NCBI RefSeq assembly: GCF_016901955.1
Contig: NZ_JACJLC010000004.1
Location: 1-64,000 of the forward strand
Source of the DNA: Pseudoflavonifractor phocaeensis
GTDB lineage: Bacteria; Bacillota; Clostridia; Oscillospirales; Oscillospiraceae
Direction: 5' to 3'
DNA length: 64,000 bases
The notes under the pieces are model-generated. The model saw only the letters and a program-made list of their open reading frames with translations. It was not told where the DNA came from and ran no database searches. A program made the translations under genes and the position numbers. Of the stretch, positions 955-50,438 are shown in pieces. Within the stretch, counting starts at the first letter, position 1, and each line of letters starts with the position of its first letter.

Positions 955-1392
955 ATGACCAATCAAGAAATTTTCGAGCTGATGGCTCGCTTTGATGCCA
1001 GCACCGCCGCCACCCTGAAGCTGTCCACCAAGGACTTCTCCCTGGAGCTGGGCAAGGCTGTGGCCGCCGCACCCGCCGCTGTGGCCGTGGCCCCCGTGGC
1101 CGCACCCGCCGCCGCGCCTGCCGCCGCACCCGCCCCTGCCGCCCAGCCTGAGGGCCCCTGCATCACCGCTCCCCTGGTGGGCACCTTCTACGCCGCCTCC
1201 GCCCCCGACGCCGAGCCCTTTGTCAAGGTGGGCGACAAGGTGAAGAAGGGCCAGACCGTCTGCCTCATGGAGGCCATGAAGATGATGAACGAGGTCCACG
1301 CCCCCTGCGACTGCACCATCGAGGCCATTCTCCAGGAGGACGGCGCCCTGGTGTCCTTCGGCGACCCCCTCATCCGCTACCGGGAAGGGTGA
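955..1392 (+). CDS. accB: Biotin carboxyl carrier protein of acetyl-CoA carboxylase
   Basis: A 145-residue BCCP. It has an N-terminal helical part, an Ala/Pro-rich flexible linker (about residues 40-65) and a C-terminal biotinyl domain with the EAMKMMNE motif, in which Lys109 is the biotinylation site. It carries CO2 from AccC to the AccDA transferase. The start at 955 follows AAAGGAG; an in-frame ATG at 919 does not. accC begins five bases after its stop codon. Confidence 0.95.
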   Translation: MTNQEIFELMARFDASTAATLKLSTKDFSLELGKAVAAAPAAVAVAPVAAPAAAPAAAPAPAAQPEGPCITAPLVGTFYAASAPDAEPFVKVGDKVKKGQTVCLMEAMKMMNEVHAPCDCTIEAILQEDGALVSFGDPLIRYREG

Positions 1393-1396
1393 TTCC

Positions 1397-2782
1397 ATGT
1401 TTAAGCGTATTTTGATCGCCAACCGGGGCGAGATCGCCGTCCGGGTGTTCCGGGCCTGCCGGGAGCTGGACATAGAGCCTGTGGTGGTATATTCCCAGGC
1501 CGATGTCAACGCCCTCCATGTGCAGTTGGCCGAGCGGGCCTACTGCATCGGCCCCGCTCGCTCCGCCGACAGCTACCTGAACGTGGACGCCATCCTCACT
1601 GTGGCCAAGGCCACCGGCTGCGACGCTATCCACCCTGGTTACGGCTTTCTGTCGGAAAATGATGAGTTCGCCGACGCCTGCGCTCAGGCCGGCATCGCCT
1701 TTATCGGCCCCTCCGGCGACGTGATCCGGGCCATGGGTAACAAGGCAGCCGCCCGTAAGCTGATGATGTCCGCCGGCGTGCCGGTGGTGCCCGGCTCCGA
1801 CGGCGCCGTGGAAACCGCCGAGCAGGCCAAAGAACTGGCCGATTCCATTGGTTATCCCGTGCTCATCAAGGCCTCTGCCGGCGGCGGCGGCCGAGGCATG
1901 CGCCGGGTATTTGAACCCGATCAGCTTATCCCCCTCTTTGAGGAGGCACGCAGCGAGTCCGTGGCCTGCTTCGGCAGCGGGGAGATGTACCTGGAAAAGC
2001 TGATCCTCAACCCTCGCCACATCGAGTTCCAGATCATGGCCGACCAGCAGGGCAACGTGATCCAGCTGGGGGACCGTGACTGCTCCATCCAGCGTCGCAA
2101 TCAGAAGCTCATTGAGGAGTCTCCCTCCAAGGCCCTCACCCCCGAGCTGCGGGAGCGCATGGGCGCCGCCGCCGTGGCCGCCGCCAAGGCCGCCCACTAT
2201 GTCAACGCCGGTACCATCGAATTTGTGCTGGACCCTGACGGCAATTTCTATTTCATTGAGATGAACACCCGCATCCAGGTGGAGCACCCGGTCACCGAGC
2301 TGGTCACCGGCATGGACCTGGTGCGTGAGCAGATCCGCATCGCCGCCGGCCTGCCCCTGTCGCGCACCCAGGAGGAGGTGGTCCAGAAAGGCCACGCCAT
2401 TGAGTGCCGTATCAACGCCGAGGACCCCGCCCACAACTTCCAGCCCTGCCCCGGCAAGATCGACTTTGTCCATCTCCCCGGCGGCTACGGCGTGCGGGTG
2501 GACACCGGCCTGTATTCCGGTTACACCCTGCCCCCTTATTATGATTCCCTCATGGCCAAACTCATCGTCTTTGCCCCCACCCGGCTGGAGGCCATCCGCC
2601 GGATGCGCCGGGCTCTGGAGGAGCTGGTCATTGAGGGCCCCGCCAACAACACCGATCTGCTCCACCAGATCATGCACCACCCTGACTTTGTCCGGGGCAA
2701 TTACACCACCGGCTATCTGGAGGCCAACATGGACACCCTGCTGTCCTGGAGCCGGGTGGGAGAGGAGGAAGCTAAGGCATGA
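1397..2782 (+). CDS. accC: Biotin carboxylase subunit of acetyl-CoA carboxylase
   Basis: A 461-residue ATP-grasp enzyme that carboxylates biotin on AccB with ATP and bicarbonate. It begins with the biotin-carboxylase N-domain (RILIANRGEIAVRV), has the glycine-rich ATP loop SAGGGGRGMR near residue 165, and the EMNTRIQVEHPVTE segment that holds metal and active-site residues. Length is slightly above the usual 445-450. Its last four bases overlap the start of accD (ATGA), indicating translational coupling. Confidence 0.96.
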   Translation: MFKRILIANRGEIAVRVFRACRELDIEPVVVYSQADVNALHVQLAERAYCIGPARSADSYLNVDAILTVAKATGCDAIHPGYGFLSENDEFADACAQAGIAFIGPSGDVIRAMGNKAAARKLMMSAGVPVVPGSDGAVETAEQAKELADSIGYPVLIKASAGGGGRGMRRVFEPDQLIPLFEEARSESVACFGSGEMYLEKLILNPRHIEFQIMADQQGNVIQLGDRDCSIQRRNQKLIEESPSKALTPELRERMGAAAVAAAKAAHYVNAGTIEFVLDPDGNFYFIEMNTRIQVEHPVTELVTGMDLVREQIRIAAGLPLSRTQEEVVQKGHAIECRINAEDPAHNFQPCPGKIDFVHLPGGYGVRVDTGLYSGYTLPPYYDSLMAKLIVFAPTRLEAIRRMRRALEELVIEGPANNTDLLHQIMHHPDFVRGNYTTGYLEANMDTLLSWSRVGEEEAKA

Positions 2783-3645
2783 GCAACGTCTTTGCCCAGC
2801 GGCGTCAGAAGCTGCTCTCCATGAAGGCCCTCCGGGGCTCCTCCCCCGCCCCCGCTCACACCGAGGAGACCTGCCCCCAGTGCGGCGGCACCTTCCGCCG
2901 CCGGGACCTGGTGATGGCCCGGTACGTCTGCCCCTTGTGCGGGCATCATTACCCCATCGGGGCCTACTACCGGCTCAGCCTGGTGCTGGACAAGGGCACC
3001 TTCCGGGAGCTGGACACCTCGCTTACCTCCAACGATCCCCTGTCCTTCCCCGGCTATTCCGCCAAACTGGATCAGGCCCGCCGCCGCACCGGCATGAACG
3101 AGGGCTTGGTCACCGCCACCGGTCGTATCGGCGGCCAGAAGGTGGCCATCGGCGCCCTGGACAGCCGGTTCTTCATGGGTAGTATGAGCGCAGCCCTGGG
3201 CGACAAGGTGACCCGGCTGGTGGAGTACGCGGAAAAATACAAGCTCCCCCTCATCCTGTTCTCCGCCAGCGGCGGGGCCCGGATGCAGGAGGGCATTCTG
3301 TCCCTGATGCAGATGGCCAAGACCTCCGCCGCCCTGGAGCGGTTCTCCCGGAAGGGCGGGCTGTACATCTCCGTGCTCACCCACCCTACCACCGGCGGCG
3401 TCACCGCCAGCTTCGCCAGCCTGGGGGACATCATGCTGGCCGAGCCCGGCGCACTCATCGGCTTTGCCGGCCCCCGGGTCATCGAGCAGACCATCGGCGA
3501 AAAGCTGCCCGAGGGCTTCCAGCGGGCGGAATACCTGCTGGAGCACGGCTTCCTGGACGCCATCGTCCCCCGCACCCAGCTGCGGGACACCCTGCTCCAG
3601 CTGCTGAAACTCCACGGGAAAGGAGGCAGTGACCGTGCGAAATAA
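2779..3645 (+). CDS. accD: Acetyl-CoA carboxylase carboxyltransferase, beta subunit
   Basis: A 288-residue carboxyltransferase beta subunit. A four-cysteine zinc finger (CPQC...CPLC) lies near residues 34-57, followed by a crotonase-like domain with the SGGARMQEG oxyanion segment. With AccA it moves CO2 from biotin to acetyl-CoA to give malonyl-CoA. It overlaps accC by four bases, and its end overlaps the accA start. Confidence 0.95.
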   Translation: MSNVFAQRRQKLLSMKALRGSSPAPAHTEETCPQCGGTFRRRDLVMARYVCPLCGHHYPIGAYYRLSLVLDKGTFRELDTSLTSNDPLSFPGYSAKLDQARRRTGMNEGLVTATGRIGGQKVAIGALDSRFFMGSMSAALGDKVTRLVEYAEKYKLPLILFSASGGARMQEGILSLMQMAKTSAALERFSRKGGLYISVLTHPTTGGVTASFASLGDIMLAEPGALIGFAGPRVIEQTIGEKLPEGFQRAEYLLEHGFLDAIVPRTQLRDTLLQLLKLHGKGGSDRAK

Positions 3646-4456
3646 TCTCACCCCCGCCCAGCGGGTGGCGCTGGCCCGTCATCAGGACCGGCCGGGCACC
3701 GCCGACTTCATCGACGCCCTGTTCACCGACTTCTTCGAGCAGCGGGGCGACCGACTGTGCCAGGACGACGGCAGCATCCTGGGGGGCGTGGCCCTCTTCC
3801 ACGGCCGCCCGGTCACTGTCATCGGCCACCGGAAGGGCCGCACTCTGGAGGAGCACCTGGCCTACCACTTCGGCATGCCCTCCCCCGAGGGCTACCGCAA
3901 GGCCCAGCGGCTCATGCTCCAGGCCGAGAAATTCGGCCGGCCCGTCATTACCTTTATCGACACCCCCGGCGCCTACCCCGGCCTGGAGGCCGAGGCCAGA
4001 GGTCAGGGAGAGGCCATTGCCCGCACCCTGGCCATCTCCTCCGCTCTCACCGTCCCGGTGATCTCCGTGGTCACCGGCGAGGGCGGCAGCGGCGGCGCCC
4101 TCGCCCTGGGCGTGGGCAACAAGGTGCTCATGCTGGAGAACGCCGTCTACTCCGTCCTCTCCCCCGAGGGCTTTGCCGCCATTCTGTGGAAGGACTCTTC
4201 CCGCAGCGACGAGGCCTGCGACGTGATGAAGCTCACCGCCGCCGATCTGCTGGAGCTGGGGGTCATCGACGAGATCATCCCCGAGCCGGAGGCCGGGGCC
4301 CATACCGACCTGCGGGCAGTGTGCCGGGCCCTGGACCCTGTGCTCACCCGGGAGCTCAACGCTCTGTGCAAGCAGAACGGCCAGGCCCTGGCCGCCGCCC
4401 GCTATAAAAAATTCCGTCTGATGGGCAGCAACGCCCTGAGAAAGGAGCGCCCATGA
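3635..4456 (+). CDS. accA: Acetyl-CoA carboxylase carboxyltransferase, alpha subunit
   Basis: A 273-residue alpha subunit, shorter than the proteobacterial form (about 319) as is common in Firmicutes. It shows GHRKGRTLEEH, FIDTPGAYPG and the EGGSGGALALG oxyanion segment. The GTG at 3635 is preferred because AGGAGG at 3621-3626 sits eight bases upstream; the in-frame GTG at 3629 would be too close to it. It overlaps accD by 11 bases and fabH by four. Confidence 0.94.
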   Translation: MRNNLTPAQRVALARHQDRPGTADFIDALFTDFFEQRGDRLCQDDGSILGGVALFHGRPVTVIGHRKGRTLEEHLAYHFGMPSPEGYRKAQRLMLQAEKFGRPVITFIDTPGAYPGLEAEARGQGEAIARTLAISSALTVPVISVVTGEGGSGGALALGVGNKVLMLENAVYSVLSPEGFAAILWKDSSRSDEACDVMKLTAADLLELGVIDEIIPEPEAGAHTDLRAVCRALDPVLTRELNALCKQNGQALAAARYKKFRLMGSNALRKERP

Positions 4457-5403
4457 ACGGGATCAAGCTGCTGAGCACCGGCTCAGCCCTGCCCCGCCAG
4501 GCCGTCACCAATGACGATATGGCCAAGCGGGTAGACACCAGCGACGAATGGATCGCCACCCGCACCGGCATCCGCAGCCGCTATCACTGCTCTGGCGACG
4601 AGACCCATATCGGTCTCTGCCTGGCCGCCGCCCGGCAGGCTCTGAACCGCTCCGGCATCGGCCCGGAGCAGATCGGGGTGTGCATCGTGGCCACCCTGTC
4701 CCAGGACTTCCTCACCCCTGCCACCGCCTGCATCCTGCAGCGGGACCTGGGGTTCCCGGAGGACACGGTATGCTTTGACCTGAACGCCGCCTGCTCCGGC
4801 TTTGTCTACGCCCTGCACACCGCCGAGTGCCTGCTTGCCGCCTCCCAGCGGAAGTACGGCCTCATCGTGGGCGCCGAGGCCCTCAGCCGCATCACCGACT
4901 TCACCGACCGCTCCACCTGCGTCCTCTTCGGGGACGGGGCTGGAGCTGCCCTGGTGGAGTGGCGGGCGGACTACCCCTCCCTTCACGCGGTGCTGGGCTG
5001 CCGGGGCAATCAGAAGGCTCTGTACGTCCCCGGCGCAAACTCCACCTCCCCCTCCTATATCCACATGGACGGCAAGGCCGTGTTCCGCTTCGCCGTGGAG
5101 GCTCTGCCCCATTGCGCCAAGGAGGTTGTGGAGAAGGCCGGCCTCACCCTGAGTGACGTGGACCGGTTCGTATTCCACCAGGCCAACCAGCGCATTATCG
5201 ACTTCTCGGTGAAAAAGCTGGGTGTGGACCCGGAGAAGTGCACCGGCAACATCGCCCGCACCGGCAACACCTCCGCCGCCAGCGTTCCCCTGCTGCTGGA
5301 CGAGCTCATTACCTCCGGCGTCCTGACCTCCGGCCAGAAGGCCCTGTGCGTGGGCTTCGGCGGAGGGCTCACCTGGGCGGGGGCCCTGCTGGAGCTGGCG
5401 TAA
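4453..5403 (+). CDS. fabH: 3-oxoacyl-ACP synthase III
   Basis: A 316-residue initiating condensing enzyme that joins acetyl-CoA (or a branched acyl-CoA) with malonyl-ACP. The catalytic Cys114 lies in NAACSGF, the histidine in FHQANQRI and the asparagine in GNTSAASV, the usual Cys-His-Asn set. It starts inside the end of accA (ATGA overlap). A 210-base structured spacer separates it from fabK, the only sizeable gap in the operon. Confidence 0.95.
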   Translation: MNGIKLLSTGSALPRQAVTNDDMAKRVDTSDEWIATRTGIRSRYHCSGDETHIGLCLAAARQALNRSGIGPEQIGVCIVATLSQDFLTPATACILQRDLGFPEDTVCFDLNAACSGFVYALHTAECLLAASQRKYGLIVGAEALSRITDFTDRSTCVLFGDGAGAALVEWRADYPSLHAVLGCRGNQKALYVPGANSTSPSYIHMDGKAVFRFAVEALPHCAKEVVEKAGLTLSDVDRFVFHQANQRIIDFSVKKLGVDPEKCTGNIARTGNTSAASVPLLLDELITSGVLTSGQKALCVGFGGGLTWAGALLELA

Positions 5404-5407
5404 GCCT

Positions 5408-5571
5408 CCAACCAGCGGCATAGCCGCTGGTTGGAATCGATGCAGCCCACTGCGCGCAGGCTTTGGCCGCAAGTCAACCAAAGCCCACACTTGTGGGCTG
5501 AGAAGTATTTTCGCCCACGCGCATGTCGCGGTCGAAAACAGATTAAAATTTTTTCGCGTCTGGGACGCGAA
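5408..5571. repeat. Structured spacer with several inverted repeats between fabH and fabK
   Basis: Within one operon this gap holds a perfect 12-bp stem with an ATA loop (5408-5419 with 5423-5434), a 7-bp pairing (5460-5466 with 5478-5484), an 8-bp AGCCCACA stem (5482-5489 with 5492-5499) and an 8-bp stem (5553-5560 with 5564-5571). None is followed by a T run, so they are not standard terminators. They could be mRNA processing or stability elements, an attenuator, or a small interspersed repeat. Confidence 0.55.
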
Positions 5572-5613
5572 CTCTGCCAGGCCATTTTCCCAAGGGCCTA
5601 AAAGGAGCTTAAT

Positions 5614-6534
5614 ATGAAACTGAATGAACTGTTGGGGGTTGAATTCCCCATTATCCAGGGCGGCATGGCCAACATCGCCACCGGCGCGTTTGCCGCCGCC
5701 GTATCCAACGCCGGCGCTCTGGGCCTGGTGGGCTCCGGCGGCATGGACGCCGAGACTCTGCGGGCTGAGATCCGCACCGCCAAGGCGGGTACCGACAAGC
5801 CCTTCGGCGTCAACCTGATGCTGATGAACCCCCACATTGACGAGCTGGCCAAAGTAGTGGTGGAAGAGGGCGTCCAGGTGGTGACCACCGGCGCCGGCAA
5901 CCCCGGCAAGTACGTCCCCGCCTGGAAGGAAGCCGGTATCAAGGTGTTCCCCGTAGTGGCCGCCCCCATCCTGGCCAAGCGGCTGGAGCGGTACGGCATT
6001 GACGGCGTCATCGCCGAGGGCACCGAGAGCGGCGGCCATGTGGGCGAGATGACCACCATGGCCCTGGTGCCCCAGGTGGTGGACGCGGTGAGCGTGCCCG
6101 TCATCGCCGCCGGCGGCATTGCCGACGGCCGCCAGCTGGCCGCCGCCTTCGCCCTGGGCGCCTGCGGCGTTCAGGTAGGCACCTGCCTGCTGGCCAGCGA
6201 AGAGTGTCCCATCCACGACAATTATAAGCAGGCCGTCATTAAGGCCGGCGCCAACGACACCACCGTCACCGGCCGCTCCGGCGGGGCTCCCGTTCGGGTG
6301 CTGAAGAACAAGATGGCCCGGGAGTACCTGCGGATGGAGAAGCAGAACCTGCCTCTGGCCGAGATGGAGAAGCTCACCCTGGGCTCCCTCCGCCGGGCGG
6401 TATTCGACGGCGACTGGGATACCGGCAGCTTCATGGCCGGTCAGGTGGCCGGTATGATGACTGAGATCCGCCCCCTGCGCCAGATTTTTGAGGAACTGAT
6501 GAGCGGCTATGAGGCCGTTGTGAAAGGACTGTAA
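5614..6534 (+). CDS. fabK: Enoyl-ACP reductase II (FMN-dependent)
   Basis: A 306-residue TIM-barrel flavoprotein of the FabK/nitronate monooxygenase family that does the last reduction of each elongation cycle. It starts LNELLGVEFPIIQGGMANIATG and has the GTESGGHVGE and AAGGIADGRQ phosphate-binding loops. A FabI-type enzyme is not encoded here. AGGAG lies upstream of the ATG, and fabD follows after two bases. Confidence 0.93.
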   Translation: MKLNELLGVEFPIIQGGMANIATGAFAAAVSNAGALGLVGSGGMDAETLRAEIRTAKAGTDKPFGVNLMLMNPHIDELAKVVVEEGVQVVTTGAGNPGKYVPAWKEAGIKVFPVVAAPILAKRLERYGIDGVIAEGTESGGHVGEMTTMALVPQVVDAVSVPVIAAGGIADGRQLAAAFALGACGVQVGTCLLASEECPIHDNYKQAVIKAGANDTTVTGRSGGAPVRVLKNKMAREYLRMEKQNLPLAEMEKLTLGSLRRAVFDGDWDTGSFMAGQVAGMMTEIRPLRQIFEELMSGYEAVVKGL

Positions 6535-23881: not shown

Positions 23882-25099
23882 ATGAAAGGCAGTGGAAGCG
23901 TAAGATTACGCGGTAAGACCTGGTCATACCGTGTCGGTCTTGGGAAAATGAAAATAGATGGCAAAAGAAAGCAGATCGAAGGCAGCGGTTTCAGGACGCA
24001 AAAAGAAGCCGTGAAAGCCATGCATGAAATTCTGGCCCAGTATCATAAAACCGGCGAATATGTGGATAACAAAAAGATCACATTCCAGCAGAACTCCGAG
24101 GAATTTATCCAAGTCGAGTCGTCAGCTACCCGTGCCTACGCCACCATCTTGCGATACGAATCAATTTACCGCAATCATTTGCAGAATGAATTTGGCCCTC
24201 TGTATCTATATCAGATCGACTCCAAAAGGATACAAACATTTTTGCACGAAAAGTCCAGCAAGTACAGCGAGTCCTTTGTGAAGAGCCTGTACAAAGCGTT
24301 CAATGTCCTGTTTTCCTACGCTTACCGGAATAAGGTCATAAAGGTGAATCCCATGGACGATGTCGCGCCTCCTCCCGATCCCAGGCACCGTTCCGACGTG
24401 GTAATCTACTCCGCTCAGGAACGGGAGAAGATCCAAGAACGCATCGAAAGCACCAATGTGAAAAGCGCGTATTACATCGGCTTGAATACCGGCGTCCGAG
24501 TAAGTGAGTGCTTTGCACTGCGCTGGTCAGACATAGACTTTGAGAAGAGAACCGTCCGGATCGACAAACAGCTCAGGTTCCAGGATAAAAAATGGTGCTT
24601 TACCCCCCTGAAAACCAGAAACTCTTACCGGACGATTGATGTTTCAGCCCCATTTGTTCAGTACCTCACCGAACTCAAAAAGGCCCAGGAAGCCGCCGCA
24701 CTTGTGTATGGTACGTCCTATCAAAAAACAAATGTCGTCTGGGACCGAAGGCTGCGCCATCAGGACGATCCATTGGAAATCGACGACTTTATTAACATTA
24801 AGCAAAACGGAAAAATGATGACCTCAGACAGCGAAAAATTTATGGCCAAAATCATCAAGCAGGATTGCGACATCTACTTCAAATTCCATAATCTTCGGCA
24901 CACATACGCCACGTTGTTAGCCGAGAGCGGCGTAAGTCCACGCTATGCGCAGGAGCAGCTTGGTCACGCTAAAATGGAATTTACCCTGCGGTACTATACC
25001 CACCTGACAGAATCTATGAAAAATACCGCCATGAACCTGCTTTCCGCCAAAATATCCCTTCCTCATGGTGATACGGATGAAGAGGCGGACACCGAATAA
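23882..25099 (+). CDS. Tyrosine site-specific integrase
   Basis: A 405-residue recombinase of the phage/ICE type. It has an N-terminal arm-binding domain (GSVRLRGKTWSYRVG), a SAM-like core-binding domain (about 65-165) and a catalytic domain with Arg (LNTGVRVSE), HNLRH, LGHA and the nucleophile Tyr (RYYTHL). All key residues are present, so it looks intact. Base and codon use are AT-richer than the flanks. No excisionase, relaxase or replication genes follow, so the element appears eroded. Confidence 0.9.
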   Translation: MKGSGSVRLRGKTWSYRVGLGKMKIDGKRKQIEGSGFRTQKEAVKAMHEILAQYHKTGEYVDNKKITFQQNSEEFIQVESSATRAYATILRYESIYRNHLQNEFGPLYLYQIDSKRIQTFLHEKSSKYSESFVKSLYKAFNVLFSYAYRNKVIKVNPMDDVAPPPDPRHRSDVVIYSAQEREKIQERIESTNVKSAYYIGLNTGVRVSECFALRWSDIDFEKRTVRIDKQLRFQDKKWCFTPLKTRNSYRTIDVSAPFVQYLTELKKAQEAAALVYGTSYQKTNVVWDRRLRHQDDPLEIDDFINIKQNGKMMTSDSEKFMAKIIKQDCDIYFKFHNLRHTYATLLAESGVSPRYAQEQLGHAKMEFTLRYYTHLTESMKNTAMNLLSAKISLPHGDTDEEADTE

Positions 25100-39627: not shown

Positions 39628-41595
39628 TCACCACGGCGTCAGCTCCAGGTACAGGTTCTTATACTGTCTGGCAGACTGCTCCCAGGACACATCCTTGGCC
39701 ATATCCCGCTGGACGACCTCGTCCCAGTGATAGCGGTTATTGAAGTAGAGGGTCTTGGCCCGGTTGATGGCGTCCAGCAGCAGACCTGCGTCATAGCGGT
39801 CAAAGGTAAAGCCGTTTCCGTCTCCAGTGAATTCATTATAGGGCTCCACGGTGTCCTTCAGGCCGCCGGTCTCCCGGACGATGGGTATGGTACCGTAGTG
39901 CATGGCGTTGAGCTGGGTTAAACCGCAGGGCTCAAAGCGGGAGGGCACCAGCAGCACATCGGCGCCGGCATAGATGCGGTGGGCCCGGGATTCGTCGTAC
40001 TGGATACAGGCACTGAAGGTGCCCTTGTAGGTATGCTCATAATACCGGAAGGCATCCTCATATTCCTTGTCGCCGGTTCCCAGCACCACCACCTGGGTGT
40101 TGCCGTCCAGAACCTGGGTCATGATAGCATTGACCAGGTCCAAGCCTTTCTGGTTGGTGAGCCGGGAAATCAGACCAATGACAAACTTTCCGGTATCCTC
40201 CTCCAGGCCCAGCTCCTTCTGGAGGGCCAGCTTGTTCTCCATCTTATGATCCAGCACGTTGCCCAGGCCATAGTTGGCCGCCAGAGCCGGATCGGTCTCC
40301 GGATTCCACATGCCGTAGTCGATCCCGTTGACGATGCCCCGGAGTTTACCGCTGTGATAGCGCAGATGGTTCTCCAGCCCCTCGCCGTACTCGCTGGTCT
40401 GGATCTCCCAGGCATAGGTGCCGCTGACGGTGGTAATGCGGTCAGCATAGGCCAAACCACCCTTGAGCATGTTGGCATCCACCCAGTTCTGCTTCAGCGC
40501 CCCCATTTCAAAGACCTCCTTGGGCAGGCCGGACCAGTACTGGATCGTGGGGATGTTGTAGACCCCCTGGAAGCGGAGGTTGTGGATGGTGATCACCGAC
40601 TTGGCCCGACCCACCGGGGAATTCTGGAACAGGGTGCGCAGGTACACCGGAACCAGCCCCGCCTGCCAGTCATGGCAATGGATGATATCGGGGATCCAGT
40701 CCATAAAGTTCAGGGCAGCCAGGGCTGCTTTGCTAAAGAAGCAATACTTTGGGATATCGTCCACCAGATTGGTGTAGGGCTTCCCAATGGAGAAGAATTC
40801 CTGGTTATCAATAAAGTCGTACACCACGCCATCGTTGATGTACTCCATAATTCCCACGTAGTATTCCCGTCCGGTCTTGCCCAGGTCCATATAGAATTCA
40901 CCCCGGTAGACCATCTTGTCCTGGTACTCCTGGGGGATACAGGCATAGCGGGGCAGGATGACCCGCACGTCACAGTTCAGTCGGGCAAGTTCCCGGGGTA
41001 AAGCGTACATTACATCCCCCAGACCGCCCGTTTTAACAAAGGGATGACATTCTGAGCCAATAAACGCAATGCTCCTCCGGGGCAGATTGGACATCTCATT
41101 CACAGGCGAAGCCTCCTCTACAACAGAGACAGTTTCCTCTACTACGGGAGCAGCTTCCTCCGCCGCGGGGACGGGCTCCTTTGCGGCAGGCGCTTTCTTT
41201 TTTGAGGTTGGCGCCTTCTTTTTCCCGGCCGTCGCCGCAGCCTTTTCCGTAGCAGGCTTTTTCCCAGTGGCGGTTTTTTTCCTGGTGGCGGCAGTTTTCT
41301 TTTCCGTGGTCCCCTTCTCCTCCGCGGCAACCGCTTCCTTTTCCACGGAAGCCTTCTCCCCGGCGGGCTCCTGTTCAACAGCAGCAGCCTTCTTCTCCGC
41401 GGCAGCAGTCTTTTTCGTAGCGGAAGCAGCCCGCTTTCTGGTAGAGGCAACCTTCTTTTCAGCGGGCTCAGCCTGTTCTGCGACAGACGCAGCCTGTTCC
41501 GCGCGGACGGGATCCACTGCGGCAGGCACTTCTGTTTCCACTGCTGAGACCGCAGCTGCCGTTTCCTTTACAGGATCCGCTTTTTTACGTGCCAT
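39628..41595 (-). CDS. glgA: Glycogen synthase with histone-H1-like N-terminal tail
   Basis: A 655-residue protein. Residues 1 to about 170 are almost only Ala, Lys, Glu, Val and Thr with repeated K-K-x-A and T-R-K-K motifs, like histone H1 or AlgP tails. The GT5 starch/glycogen synthase starts at RRSIAFIGSECHPFVKTGGLGDV (KTGGL binds ADP-glucose) and runs normally to the end, with a later SRFEPCGLTQL motif. Ordinary GlgA is about 475-480 residues, so the tail is an addition. It makes alpha-1,4-glucan; malQ lies at 59351. The tail may bind nucleic acid or self-associate (inference). Confidence 0.92.
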   Translation of the reverse strand: MARKKADPVKETAAAVSAVETEVPAAVDPVRAEQAASVAEQAEPAEKKVASTRKRAASATKKTAAAEKKAAAVEQEPAGEKASVEKEAVAAEEKGTTEKKTAATRKKTATGKKPATEKAAATAGKKKAPTSKKKAPAAKEPVPAAEEAAPVVEETVSVVEEASPVNEMSNLPRRSIAFIGSECHPFVKTGGLGDVMYALPRELARLNCDVRVILPRYACIPQEYQDKMVYRGEFYMDLGKTGREYYVGIMEYINDGVVYDFIDNQEFFSIGKPYTNLVDDIPKYCFFSKAALAALNFMDWIPDIIHCHDWQAGLVPVYLRTLFQNSPVGRAKSVITIHNLRFQGVYNIPTIQYWSGLPKEVFEMGALKQNWVDANMLKGGLAYADRITTVSGTYAWEIQTSEYGEGLENHLRYHSGKLRGIVNGIDYGMWNPETDPALAANYGLGNVLDHKMENKLALQKELGLEEDTGKFVIGLISRLTNQKGLDLVNAIMTQVLDGNTQVVVLGTGDKEYEDAFRYYEHTYKGTFSACIQYDESRAHRIYAGADVLLVPSRFEPCGLTQLNAMHYGTIPIVRETGGLKDTVEPYNEFTGDGNGFTFDRYDAGLLLDAINRAKTLYFNNRYHWDEVVQRDMAKDVSWEQSARQYKNLYLELTPW

Positions 41596-41793: not shown

Positions 41794-43212
41794 TTATCGG
41801 GACGTTCCGGAATGCTGGGGCCAGAAGGTCTCCACAGCCTGTTCCGCCGTATGACGGATGCGGTCTGTATAGCCGTTTTTCCAGGCAAAACACATCTGGC
41901 GGTCGCAGCCCATAAGCTGACAGTCTCCATCGATGAGCGCGGTAGCCCGACAACCACCGCCGCAGTAATAGCGATACTTGCAGGCGGCGCACTCTTTATT
42001 CGCTGCCATCAGATCCCGTACCCGGCTATTGACAAATTGCATATAGTAGCTGTCGCTGAGCCCCTGGCGAAGCCCGATGTCCTGGATTTTGGGGAACAGT
42101 TCCTGATAGGGACTGGACGTCATGGGCATACAGGGCAGTAGCCGTCCCTCAGGGGTGATGTAGCAGGCGAAACGAGCGGCTTGGCACAAATGGTGGTCAA
42201 GGCAGCTTTCGGTACCGTCATACGGGGCAGGGACAATCACATAGGGAGAATCCTGGGACAGAACAATGATGCCTCCCAAAGTGAGCCGACGAATAGGCCG
42301 TCCTGTACGGTAGTACCAAGAAATATATGGGAGCATTCCTTCAACATATTCCCGCTGTGTTAAGGCATTGCCCTGGCTGTGCCGCTGCCAGAGCGGAGTC
42401 GCAGAGACATTGGAGACTTTGAGCTCATCCACGCCCACCGTCTGGAGCACCTCGATCGTCTGGGGCAGGGTGTTGATATTTCCCCGGTGAATGCACATCT
42501 CAGCATCTGTTTTCAAACCGTAGTCCCGGCACAGTCGAAAAGCCCGCAGGGCGGCTTGCTCTGCGCCGGAGATTCCTCGCATCCAGTCATGCCAGCCTGT
42601 CCCATCAAAACTTATGGAAATATCCGGACTGATACCTCGGCGCGCAAATTGTTCTATTACAGTATCATCTAATAGCCAGCCATTGGTATATAGTTTGCCG
42701 ACTATCATTTTGTGCTCAAGGATGCGGTCGATCAGCTGCCACAGGTCCTTGCGCACCAGAGGTTCACCGCCTGTAAGATCTACCTGCAAAACGCCGCACT
42801 GGGCCATCTGGTCAATCAGATCGAGCGCCTCGGTGGTAGACAATTCACCCAGCCTGGCATCGGGGGCGTCCATAAAACAATGCCTGCATCGATAATTACA
42901 GCGCCCAGTCACAGACCAGAAAATACTCCGGACAAAGCGGTTGTGGTAATATTGATAATATTGCTCCGTTTCCAGTGGAACTGGCTGTGTACAAGCCGCA
43001 ACGACCCCCTCGGCCTCATACGCATGGAGCGTCGCCTCCATTTCCGGCGTAACAGGAAAACCGGTCAGATCAGTTTCCCCATCGCAGAGTAGCAACGTTT
43101 GAAGCTCATTTGCTGTCAGCGGGCGAATCTGATTGCCCTGTTGGAAAACCAGTGCCTGAGTGAGCTTTTCCCAGCCGCGGAGCCTATAACCAGGGTTAAG
43201 TCTATAAAACAT
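41794..43212 (-). CDS. Radical SAM/SPASM peptide maturase
   Basis: A 472-residue enzyme. Residues 1-80 resemble a PqqD-like recognition fold (YRLNPGYRLRGWEKL ... PLTANELQTLLLCDG). The 4Fe-4S SAM cluster motif is C105-x3-C109-x2-C112 (GRCNYRCRHCFM), followed by DLTGGEPLVRKD. The C-terminal SPASM region has many cysteines (ECAACKYRYYCGGGC, later MGCDRQMC) for auxiliary clusters. Such enzymes install crosslinks in RiPP precursors. ATG 43212 follows GGAGG by nine bases; the frame to 43290 is in the attenuator. It lies just after the precursor-like gene. Confidence 0.88.
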   Translation of the reverse strand: MFYRLNPGYRLRGWEKLTQALVFQQGNQIRPLTANELQTLLLCDGETDLTGFPVTPEMEATLHAYEAEGVVAACTQPVPLETEQYYQYYHNRFVRSIFWSVTGRCNYRCRHCFMDAPDARLGELSTTEALDLIDQMAQCGVLQVDLTGGEPLVRKDLWQLIDRILEHKMIVGKLYTNGWLLDDTVIEQFARRGISPDISISFDGTGWHDWMRGISGAEQAALRAFRLCRDYGLKTDAEMCIHRGNINTLPQTIEVLQTVGVDELKVSNVSATPLWQRHSQGNALTQREYVEGMLPYISWYYRTGRPIRRLTLGGIIVLSQDSPYVIVPAPYDGTESCLDHHLCQAARFACYITPEGRLLPCMPMTSSPYQELFPKIQDIGLRQGLSDSYYMQFVNSRVRDLMAANKECAACKYRYYCGGGCRATALIDGDCQLMGCDRQMCFAWKNGYTDRIRHTAEQAVETFWPQHSGTSR

Positions 43213-43260
43213 AGCCAAAAGCCTCCGTTTCTCGTTGCGTCCAACACAGAATGGCTGCGA

Positions 43261-43307
43261 AGAATAAAACCGGCAAACACGACAAATCAAGTCGTGTTTG
43301 CCGGTTT
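43261..43307 (-). terminator. Attenuator hairpin between precursor and maturase genes
   Basis: A perfect 17-bp stem (43267-43283 with 43291-43307), followed on the minus strand by TTTTATTCTT. Placed between precursor and enzyme genes it would make much more precursor message than enzyme message, a usual RiPP arrangement. Confidence 0.75.
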
Positions 43308-43342
43308 CTTGCGTTTTGGGTTATTCTATCAGAGAAATTGTA

Positions 43343-43519
43343 TTAGGAAGCGGTCAGGCCATAATGACACGCTACGCCACTCTGGTTCGACCATGTGGCG
43401 CATCCACCGCTCACAGTGCCGCCGCTCACAGCGCCGGAGGTAGTGATCACGTCACTGTTGTCAAAGAGGATCACTTCAGCAACAGCGGAAACATATGCCT
43501 TCTTCTCAGTCATTGTCAT
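43343..43519 (-). CDS. Putative RiPP precursor peptide
   Basis: A 58-residue peptide. The leader part MTMTEKKAYVSAVAEVILFD continues with NSDVITTSG, and the core is Gly/Ser-rich: a repeated V-S-G-G unit (residues 31-39), then C40-ATWSNQSGVA-C51 and HYGLTAS. The last residue is Ser58. AAGGAG lies five bases before ATG 43519; ATG 43513 is an alternative. It sits directly upstream of a radical SAM/SPASM gene and downstream of PqqD-like and kinase genes, so it is the likely substrate. The core is unlike subtilosin or SCIFF peptides. Confidence 0.72.
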   Translation of the reverse strand: MTMTEKKAYVSAVAEVILFDNSDVITTSGAVSGGTVSGGCATWSNQSGVACHYGLTAS

Positions 43520-43541
43520 GACAACTCCTTTCAAAATATAC

Positions 43542-43558
43542 ATTATTTAATAAATAAT
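43542..43558. promoter_or_regulatory. AT palindrome upstream of precursor gene
   Basis: A perfect palindrome ATTATTTA-A-TAAATAAT lies in the 60-base AT-rich gap before the precursor gene, a place for an internal promoter or operator. Confidence 0.4.
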
Positions 43559-43580
43559 TTAAAACTAAATTGCTTTCCGC

Positions 43581-44018
43581 TCACCGGAAAGAAAACAACT
43601 TGTTTCGTATCCGTCCGGGCAATGCCCGAAACCAAAGGCGGCGGTACCGCCCCTTCAGGGTATGCAGGTAGGCCTGATAGGCAGAACTATCACAGGAGAC
43701 GTACGCCTCGCTCTGATCGGCATAAAATCCGGTCATGACCCCGATGATCCAAGATCGAGGCACCCGCTCCCGCCAGATCCGGTTGTCCCCGCAAATCAGA
43801 TAGGCCCCGTCCAGCACCTTCACCACCCGGTGAAGCACGTACTCTCCGGTGGGACGGCGGTAAAGGGCTACATCATAGGGTTTTAAGGGACCGCTGACAG
43901 CTTCGATGACCACGGTACTCTGCCGATGGTGGAGCAGCGGCTCCATACTGTCGCCCTCGGTATGAAAGAATCCCCGTCCCTGCTGGGCCAGAACCTGTTC
44001 AATAGTCTGTCTGGTCAC
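43581..44018 (-). CDS. Soluble S26/S24-type serine peptidase in RiPP operon
   Basis: A 145-residue peptidase-like protein. Ser24 lies in TEGDSMEPLL, His63 in VLHRVV and Asp78 in CGDNRIW, the Ser/His/Asp set of SipW/ER-type signal peptidases rather than Ser/Lys. No membrane helix is visible, unusual for S26. GTG 44018 gives the usual short N-terminus and overlaps PqqD by 20 bases; ATG 44060 is possible; neither has a good ribosome site, suggesting coupling. It could remove the leader of the peptide at 43343. Confidence 0.7.
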   Translation of the reverse strand: MTRQTIEQVLAQQGRGFFHTEGDSMEPLLHHRQSTVVIEAVSGPLKPYDVALYRRPTGEYVLHRVVKVLDGAYLICGDNRIWRERVPRSWIIGVMTGFYADQSEAYVSCDSSAYQAYLHTLKGRYRRLWFRALPGRIRNKLFSFR

Positions 44019-44280
44019 GGTCCAGGGCAAAGGAGATAGCTTGCAGAAAGGCCTCCACATCCCGGCAGGCAGTCTCTTGGTCTACTCCGTCATACATCTC
44101 CAGCGTTTTTGCCACCAGGTCCTCCCGGGTGGTGCCTCTCTCTATCATATTCCAGTAGAAGGCGCCGGTGGCATTGAGCCGGACCATACCGTTGAACTGC
44201 TGGCTGGCCTCTCCAATGGCGACGATCATGTGATCATCGCCCAACTTGCGCATCAGAAATCCCGGCTTTGCATGGATCAT
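43999..44280 (-). CDS. PqqD-like RiPP recognition protein
   Basis: A 93-residue PqqD-family protein with winged-helix pattern (GFLMRKLGDDHMIVAIGEAS ... VRLNATGAFYWNMIE ... TTREDLVAKTLEMYDGV). Such proteins bind precursor leaders and present them to the modifying enzyme. AGGAGG precedes the ATG by seven bases. It overlaps the kinase gene by 47 bases and the peptidase gene by 20. Confidence 0.82.
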   Translation of the reverse strand: MIHAKPGFLMRKLGDDHMIVAIGEASQQFNGMVRLNATGAFYWNMIERGTTREDLVAKTLEMYDGVDQETACRDVEAFLQAISFALDRDQTDY

Positions 44281-44980
44281 GGGCAGGCCTCCTCATTGTT
44301 TGATATGCCAGCTGGGCGGACGCCAGCTCCCGGTTACACCGGAGCAGATAGAACGGAACGGTATCCAACATGCGCTCCACCAAGGCCCAGAACCGGTCGA
44401 AATCCTGTTGGTCCTTTGGTAAAAGCATCTGGTGAAAGATCCGGCCCGTAACCTCCCTTGTTGACAGAGCCCTGATCTCATTGACAGGGCTCTGCTCCAA
44501 AAAGCATATCCCCGCAACCGGACACATCAGGTTGTCACCCAGCCGCTCCTTGCCCATCCATGGGGTTCCGAAAGCGTACAGGACCCCGTCCATAAAACGA
44601 AAGATGGGCTTGTCGCCGTTGACCACCTTGGCCCGGGATCCAAACTGCTCCAGCCACAGCTTCATGTGAGTGGTTTTCCCCACCCCACTGGGCGCGGCAA
44701 AGACATAAGCCACTCCATCCACAGCCACCACCGCGGCATGCATTAAAAAGGCGTCATACCGGGGCAATCGCATACAGATCTTCCGGTAGAGGCACAGGCT
44801 TTCACAATACCACAGATGGGAGTCTGGGTCTGCGGCCCGCTGGGCCTGAAGTTCCTCTTCTGTGGCCCGGACGGTAAACACAGGAGGCTGGTCGGTGAGA
44901 TAGGCGTGACAGAGATCGGAAACATAGGGGTACCGAGCGTCAATCCCTATGGGGATTCCGGCCAGCTTGATACGAAACAC
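44234..44980 (-). CDS. HPr-kinase-like protein of RiPP operon
   Basis: A 248-residue kinase-like protein. The P-loop is A96-PSGVGKTT (residues 97-104), preceded by LMHAAVVAVDG, and a later acidic NGDKPIFRF segment fits an HPr kinase C-domain. It lacks the HprK N-domain. Relatives in lasso-peptide clusters (ThcoK/PadeK type) phosphorylate the C-terminal serine of the precursor; the peptide at 43343 also ends in serine. First gene of the operon; GTG start with AAGGAG nine bases upstream. Confidence 0.75.
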   Translation of the reverse strand: MFRIKLAGIPIGIDARYPYVSDLCHAYLTDQPPVFTVRATEEELQAQRAADPDSHLWYCESLCLYRKICMRLPRYDAFLMHAAVVAVDGVAYVFAAPSGVGKTTHMKLWLEQFGSRAKVVNGDKPIFRFMDGVLYAFGTPWMGKERLGDNLMCPVAGICFLEQSPVNEIRALSTREVTGRIFHQMLLPKDQQDFDRFWALVERMLDTVPFYLLRCNRELASAQLAYQTMRRPAHDPCKAGISDAQVGR

Positions 44981-45032: not shown

Positions 45033-45060
45033 ATTCTACCATTCGAATCCAGAATGTCAA
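45033..45060 (-). promoter_or_regulatory. Promoter of the RiPP operon
   Basis: TTGACA (45060-45055), a 16-base spacer and TAGAAT (45038-45033) on the minus strand, about 50 bases before the kinase start. Confidence 0.7.
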
Positions 45061-50219: not shown

Positions 50220-50243
50220 AATTGCAACAAGTTCATACACAGT

Positions 50244-50438
50244 CTTCAGGGCAGGGTGAAATTCCCGATCGGCGGTAAAGTCCGCGAGCGCGTCAGCGCA
50301 GGATTTGGTGAGATTCCAAAACCGACAGTATAGTCTGGATGGAAGAAGACGCCGGCGGGTATGGTTTTTTAGCCAATCTTTTTATCCCGCCTGCACCTGT
50401 TTTCTCAGCGCCCCGAAGGTATTCGGGGCGCTTTTTTT
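50244..50438 (+). ncRNA. FMN riboswitch (RFN element) with terminator
   Basis: Conserved RFN segments are visible: AGGGCAGGGTGAAATTCCCG, CGGCGGTAAAGTCCGCGAGC, GGATTTGGTGAGATTCC and CCGACAGTATAGTCTGGATG (50244-50349). An expression-platform terminator (50407-50417 with 50422-50432, then T run) follows. FMN binding should stop transcription of ribD-E-BA-H. Confidence 0.96.

Follow-up and report, generated by a model that had tools for sequence, protein, structure and literature searches.

Does a run of five minus-strand genes in Pseudoflavonifractor phocaeensis encode a pathway for a small modified peptide, and to what known kind of system does it come closest? The genes lie at 41794–44980 of a stretch of 64,000 nt (assembly GCF_016901955.1, contig NZ_JACJLC010000004.1, positions 1–64,000 of the forward strand), hereafter the window. 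An initial annotation, made from the letters of the window, had read them as a kinase-like protein, a PqqD protein, a protease-like protein, a precursor peptide and a radical S-adenosylmethionine (rSAM) enzyme, and all five open reading frames (ORFs) are present there. The cassette is a real, conserved unit; judged by its sequences it very probably constitutes a pathway for a ribosomally synthesized and post-translationally modified peptide (RiPP), and it is best read as an uncharacterised rSAM RiPP subfamily. The features are as follows.

44234–44980, minus strand: HPr kinase (HPrK)-like P-loop protein, 248 aa, GTG start at 44980, assigned by Foldseek and aligned motifs
43999–44280, minus strand: PqqD-like leader-binding protein, 93 aa, Pfam PqqD E 3.9e-14
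43581–44018, minus strand: S24/S26-like protease, 145 aa from GTG 44018, assigned by motifs; the ORF is open from ATG 44060
43343–43519, minus strand: precursor peptide, 58 aa, defined by its homologue set; leader to about 'DVITTS', then a two-Cys core
43267–43307, minus strand: hairpin of 17–18 pairs between the precursor and rSAM genes, from folding
41794–43212, minus strand: radical SAM/SPASM enzyme, 472 aa, assigned by Pfam and PDB profile matches
45033–45060, minus strand: promoter-like site 5' of the operon, consensus match 11/12, which does not in itself indicate function

In a scan of genome contigs the window rSAM recovered L001 (82% over the best-matching segment) and L002 (60%); a third match, L003 from Accumulibacter, covered the core alone and was dropped (32% over residues 74–270). 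A whole-genome profile built from the window, L001 and L002 enzymes was applied to overlapping draws of genomes: the family draw gave 17 matching genomes out of 400 (E 1e-45), the order draw 13 out of 394 (1e-60), a draw from the family that includes genome G717 4 out of 297 (1e-130), one from the genus of G717 7 out of 31 (1e-60), and the class draw a single genome out of 391 (1e-130), the window's own; the family, order and class draws scored at most four candidates per genome, and relatives may be missed there. The close clade, which a tree split from distant relatives with support 1.000, consists of 12 rSAM copies at 11 loci in 10 genomes, the window included: L001, L002 (from a Candidatus Blautia metagenome-assembled genome (MAG), G761) and, in seven genomes of genus g207 (same order, different family), L063, L064, L091 (two copies), L099–L102 and the partial L103. 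By profile mapping, nine of the 11 loci have all five genes as a group; their order is HPrK–PqqD–S24–precursor(s)–rSAM in eight, and L002 carries all five in another order. Thus the neighbourhood is conserved in relatives, on which the initial annotation had staked its reading. Protease matches above 170 bits occurred in 8 of 31 g207 genomes, including all seven with the rSAM. The glgA that adjoins the cassette is present in 10 genomes of the window's genus. G000 and G009 carry the cassette upstream of this gene; at the eight other glgA loci, no window sequence past about 41751 was found within the roughly 1.5 kb examined (a further glgA copy, G008:C58, stood outside this comparison).

Precursors were compared as a set of 16 sequences from 10 loci, including that of the window. 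Same-leader homologues of the 58-aa peptide, for which the initial annotation had suggested a search, adjoin the same genes in nine other genomes, indicating that this ORF did not arise by chance. Six leader positions were invariant in 16/16 (pattern Y..A..E...F.N.D), and mean pairwise identity was 68% over 20 leader columns, against about 30% for the cores. Cys was present in all 16 cores and at least twice in 15 of them (34 of 471 residues in total); the binomial value against 3% Cys, 3.4e-6, is too strong because the cores are related. A C-x10-C spacing, counted without a chance control, was found in 10 of 16 cores; since seven of the ten share the W-x-x-Q type, the spacing spans three separate kinds of core (W-x-x-Q, W-D-R and that of L100). 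The V-S-G-G repeat that had been singled out in the window peptide was absent from the other 15 precursors and is not conserved. A known leader family was rejected, as an NCBIfam scan of 14 of the 16 precursors returned a best E of 0.13, taken as chance; the two left out, L063b and L064b, were also excluded from one precursor alignment.

Core type and enzyme lineage tend to go together. W-x-x-Q cores adjoin six of the seven rSAMs of one branch (window, L001, L063, L064, L091a and L099; not L101) and none of the four other rSAMs with an adjacent precursor (L002, L091b, L100 and L102); support for this branch is modest (0.792, and 0.348 inside it). At L091, where two rSAM copies are present, each copy follows a different core type, which further supports the pairing of enzyme and peptide. 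One W-x-x-Q core, L002b, lies at the edge of its contig, and no rSAM is visible there. We also observed near-identical cores, WSSQNGYEC.GGLQ.SGGDLNPPL, in L002 (9195–9356; the Blautia MAG) and in L099 (9164–9334; another family), which reflect either transfer or a misbinned contig.

The window enzyme matched Pfam Radical_SAM with E 4.5e-18; its SPASM match stayed below the cut-off (14.7 versus 21.5 bits), the SPASM cysteines being nonetheless present and conserved together with C105-x3-C109-x2-C112. C436 was found in 12/12 close-clade copies and C337 and C350 each in 11/12, compared with 0, 1 and 0, respectively, of eight distant rSAM relatives. The best PDB profile matches were PqqE and then SkfB, over the radical SAM core. 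Resemblance to PqqE, NirJ and mycofactocin maturases across the core was likewise found with NCBIfam, all below cut-off, and the cut-offs of curated maturase models were not reached among the best 25 of 83 families (StsB 99.8 of 625 bits, PapB 57.9 of 340 bits).

The PqqD-like protein shows weak similarity to lasso B1 proteins as well as its Pfam match. The S24/S26-like product is likely a protease: SM, HR and GDN motifs occur in 14/14 aligned proteins, SM and HR being of catalytic type, with a Pfam S24 match of E 0.13 (12.5 versus a cut-off of 23.3 bits) and a weak sequence match to SEC11A (E 0.034). AlphaFold models were made from three-sequence alignments, and a Foldseek search with the protease model returned SipA, lambda repressor, signal peptidase (SPase) and LexA first (best E 2.9e-3). 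For the HPrK-like protein, Pfam gave no match, NCBIfam matches were below cut-off, and a sequence search against the PDB gave two weak chains, neither an HPrK. Its model had a mean predicted local distance difference test score (pLDDT) of 71.3 (five models 46.5–71.3); the best Foldseek matches were HprK/P structures (best E 2.7e-6, probability 1.00, with low query TM scores of 0.31–0.38), and phosphoenolpyruvate carboxykinase (PEPCK) was also among the matches. For the two identities proposed initially, the sequence assignments are weak, and the model folds resemble HprK/P and, weakly, SPase/LexA.

The P-loop and His81 are kept in 15/15 aligned HPrK-like proteins, four of which have Asp at the position of Gly122. 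The residue after Asn121 (Gly122 in the window) is Gly in 10/10 rSAM-linked copies; in 16 rSAM-free copies (L076 and 15 others) it is Asp in 12 and Gly in three (L145, L150 and L158), L154 being unread. As three rSAM-free copies carry Gly too, Gly is typical of the rSAM-linked clade and not confined to it. Asp at this position, matched by spacing only, is what we take to be the catalytic Asp178 of Lactobacillus casei HprK/P. Because Gly replaces Asp at the presumed catalytic site, a kinase role appears doubtful, and so does the usual HPr-kinase chemistry. The Gly variant of L145 (3811–4518, minus strand), near which no PqqD or S24 was found, lies by eye between methionine synthase-like and CooC-type ATPase-like genes.

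Overlapping starts, proposed for the whole operon, are confined to its first three genes; the peptide and the rSAM are separated from the gene preceding each by 61 and 130 nt, respectively. The likely rSAM start is ATG 43212 (a conserved MFYRL-type start) and not TTG 43290, and the protease probably starts at GTG 44018, since its conserved part begins there. A single promoter is plausible from the upstream match (45060–45033, 11/12 positions); a second, weaker match (43563–43535, 9/12) lies directly before the peptide, and the region contains 8 promoter-like matches versus 2.6 in shuffles. The hairpin between peptide and rSAM is strong in the window (z −6.06). RNAfold found a hairpin in 11/11 precursor–rSAM gaps and a strict stem search in 9/11, and stems of 11 or more pairs ending in five or more T occurred in 7/11 gaps compared with 0/2000 base shuffles. 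In a terminator scan the window hairpin was called on the plus strand only, with 3 terminator-like sites versus 3.8 in shuffles. The hairpin could act by attenuation, holding the enzyme level below the peptide level.

The initial annotation regarded the parts as rarely seen together, which did not survive a wider search. HPrK relatives reached E 1e-12 in 30 of the 150 family genomes searched. Among 18 other stretches (14 around HPrK matches and four around protease matches), HPrK, PqqD and S24 occur together in nine (L146, L147, L148, L151, L153, L156, L157, L158 and L162), and none of the 18 contains an rSAM at 40 bits. The HPrK–PqqD–S24 trio is a reusable module. Peptides with a clearly related leader were seen in L148, L151, L159 and L160, and a weak match in L162; Pfam identified an ABC exporter and a PF14907 nucleotidyltransferase in L148, an exporter in L158 and a nucleotidyltransferase in L159. 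None of the trio was found in 29 stretches around distant rSAM relatives, several of which end at a contig edge.

No ABC exporter had been seen in the window. Three of the 11 loci (L063, L099 and L100; several flanks are short) have one type next to the rSAM, and it was found at E 1e-150 in 10 of 11 genomes tested, G1045 having none; the matches in G677, G1018 and G1046 are lower (604–633 bits) and may be other transporters. In the window's genome the exporter lies on another contig, C238, adjoining a small related-leader peptide, and the window peptide might use it. A Gly/Asn-rich peptide with a ..EDI(I/V)TTSG leader was observed in L075 (5883–6092, minus strand, with 4040–5731, minus strand) and L077 (8004–8180, minus strand); this peptide (C238 of the window's genome; G009) has an ABC transporter gene and a nucleotidyltransferase-like gene as neighbours and no rSAM.

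Taken as one pathway, the cassette suggests the following course, in which we infer binding, order of steps, cleavage site, chemistry, the HPrK role and export. The rSAM would bind the constant leader, probably via its N-terminal part, whose approximately 90 residues may be a leader-binding domain (RiPP recognition element, RRE), and would crosslink the variable core at one or more places, most likely through its cysteines; that the crosslink is a thioether we put at somewhat under even odds. PqqD would then present the leader to the soluble, cytosolic Ser-His signal-peptidase-like protease, which would cut near the end of the ..TTS motif, and an ABC exporter like the one encoded next to the rSAM in some relatives would probably take the product out of the cell. 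The HPrK-like protein might act on the peptide in an ATP-dependent step, or else regulate the complex. To this reading as a whole, an rSAM-modified Cys core, leader removal by PqqD and protease, export and an HPrK-like helper, we assign a probability of about 0.7.

Several observations weigh against it. Pfam has no match in the first 96 aa of the rSAM, so that the leader-binding domain was assigned by eye; the L002 rSAM has a stop at codon 14. Of five protease models a single one was confident (mean pLDDT 73.3, the other four 35–44), and it gave no Foldseek match at E ≤ 0.001. The L102 core has a single Cys. L063b (L063 7775–7924, minus strand) and L064b (L064 7863–8003, minus strand), with H-G-Q cores, have no usual in-frame start codon; they may be decayed second copies, and Cys is still present in 14/14 cores when both are dropped. 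By profile mapping no PqqD was detected in L101, and the partial L103 has no partner genes within 13 kb. The eighth protease-bearing g207 genome, G1036 (L158), has HPrK, PqqD, protease and exporter without an rSAM or a detected precursor, and the related-leader peptide beside the C238 exporter may be that exporter's own cargo.

Three other explanations have to be weighed against these findings. The aromatic residues of the cores raise the question of whether the rSAM instead forms three-residue C–C rings (triceptide-like cyclophanes), from an aromatic residue to the residue two on, the Cys pair being a disulfide or metal site. Aromatic three-residue motifs of the W-S-N, W-D-R and H-G-Q kind are triceptide motifs, and W-[SA]-[NS] is present in seven, W-D-R in two and H-G-Q in two of the 16 cores. 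These triplets, counted here without a control, are however common by chance, and the other five cores lack them whereas Cys is in 16/16; recurring in 11 of 16 cores only, they are not the shared aromatic-x-x motif of triceptides, and we regard this chemistry as unlikely. A non-secreted peptide that ends up as a small cofactor, in the manner of PQQ or mycofactocin, or as a signal inside the cell would fit the PqqD, the likeness of the rSAM core to PqqE, NirJ and mycofactocin maturases, and the eight of 11 loci, some ending at a contig edge, in which no exporter was found beside the rSAM. It is improbable in view of the hypervariable cores, the three loci with the exporter type beside the rSAM and the patchy distribution (7/31 in genus g207, absent from 8/8 other glgA loci).

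Still another arrangement would have the module and the rSAM serve different peptides, the module working on another precursor of the genome. The module does occur without rSAM, and in L158 it stands beside an exporter with no detected precursor; the conserved gene order, with the precursor between protease and rSAM in 9/11 loci, and the matching presence of protease and rSAM in genus g207 make this very improbable. Returning to the single rSAM pathway, a broader version would see a combinatorial RiPP platform, in which a constant leader and the module (PqqD, protease and an HPrK-like ATPase without the kinase Asp) are combined with core-modifying enzymes that differ between lineages; here this would be a tolerant rSAM whose SPASM region has as many as three clade-specific cysteines and which would form, in hypervariable cores, a ring of C-x10-C spacing through an undescribed linkage; this is speculative and rather unlikely in full.

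Among known systems, the cassette resembles sactipeptide and ranthipeptide pathways (SkfB, PapB), where an rSAM/SPASM enzyme also stands beside a short Cys-core precursor and of which SkfB was the second-best PDB profile match; Cys in 16/16 cores is compatible with their thioether, and no more. However, the enzyme reaches no maturase family model at its cut-off, and the cassette has a separate PqqD, a signal-peptidase-like protease and an HPrK-like protein. HPrK and PqqD (split B1) are reported in lasso peptide clusters (PMC7533575), a further instance of these parts together. The B1-like PqqD, the HPrK-like protein and the nucleotidyltransferase in some relatives recall those clusters, whereas the cassette has an rSAM and a Cys-bearing core, and neither a lasso B2 protease nor an asparagine-synthetase-like cyclase C was found among the listed Pfam and NCBIfam matches of the five products. 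The Nif11-class rSAM maturase model TIGR04103 matches nearly the whole window enzyme at 97.5 bits, and distant rSAM relatives lie beside ..LD.VAGG-leader peptides, Nif11-like by eye only, in at least 8 of 27 loci; but this score is far under the cut-off of 725 bits, the leader differs, and the three cysteines are near-specific to the close clade. At L066, L067 and L073, some peptides with this leader have zinc-ribbon-like Cys patterns. The protease recalls archaeal/ER type I signal peptidases (TIGR02228, SEC11A), with whose SEC11A its SM and HR motifs align, yet it reaches only 21.2 of 51.85 bits against TIGR02228, matches SEC11A at the weak E given above, has no membrane segment by eye and lies in a RiPP-like operon.

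In the literature searched, the string 'DVITTSG' was absent, and 'ITTSG' never appeared in a RiPP context among the matches listed. No description of the gene combination was found among the listed matches (titles and abstract starts), although a JACS 2022 'Bioinformatic atlas' of rSAM RiPPs may include the group. A word search of a review of RiPP leader proteases (PMC10885120) found no S24, S26, signal peptidase or LexA, and the S24 mentions found in PMC12257519 are figure numbers. The parts and the logic of the cassette are of known kinds, and its leader, combination and candidate leader protease were not found in the literature matches listed. The product class may be new, as the initial annotation had inferred.

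Two other roles were considered and rejected. A mobile element as carrier was set aside, as plasmids and phages contained no rSAM relative at E 1e-30 and none of the 115 stretches of viral contigs that fitted a pattern was confirmed. A defence system was dismissed, as the viperin models align with nothing beyond the radical SAM core; a weak PqqD–Cas8g match (E 0.0063) was set aside. Around the cassette, the window has a neighbouring glycogen synthase ORF whose N-terminus is extended by about 165 residues rich in Ala, Lys and Glu (41100–41595, minus strand), a phage-type integrase gene by Pfam (23882–25099, plus strand, about 17 kb away) and an FMN riboswitch as its sole Rfam match (50238–50354, plus strand). 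Upstream of the L002 cassette lie an ORF that is asparagine-synthetase-like by eye (1204–2676, plus strand) and a nucleotidyltransferase (2756–3919, minus strand).

If the single-pathway reading is true, these bacteria would have a compact gut-bacterial rSAM peptide pathway whose naturally varied cores show the tolerance of the enzyme. It would also propose a leader peptidase of the signal-peptidase type, and the role of the recurrent HPrK–PqqD–S24 module in these bacteria would become directly testable.

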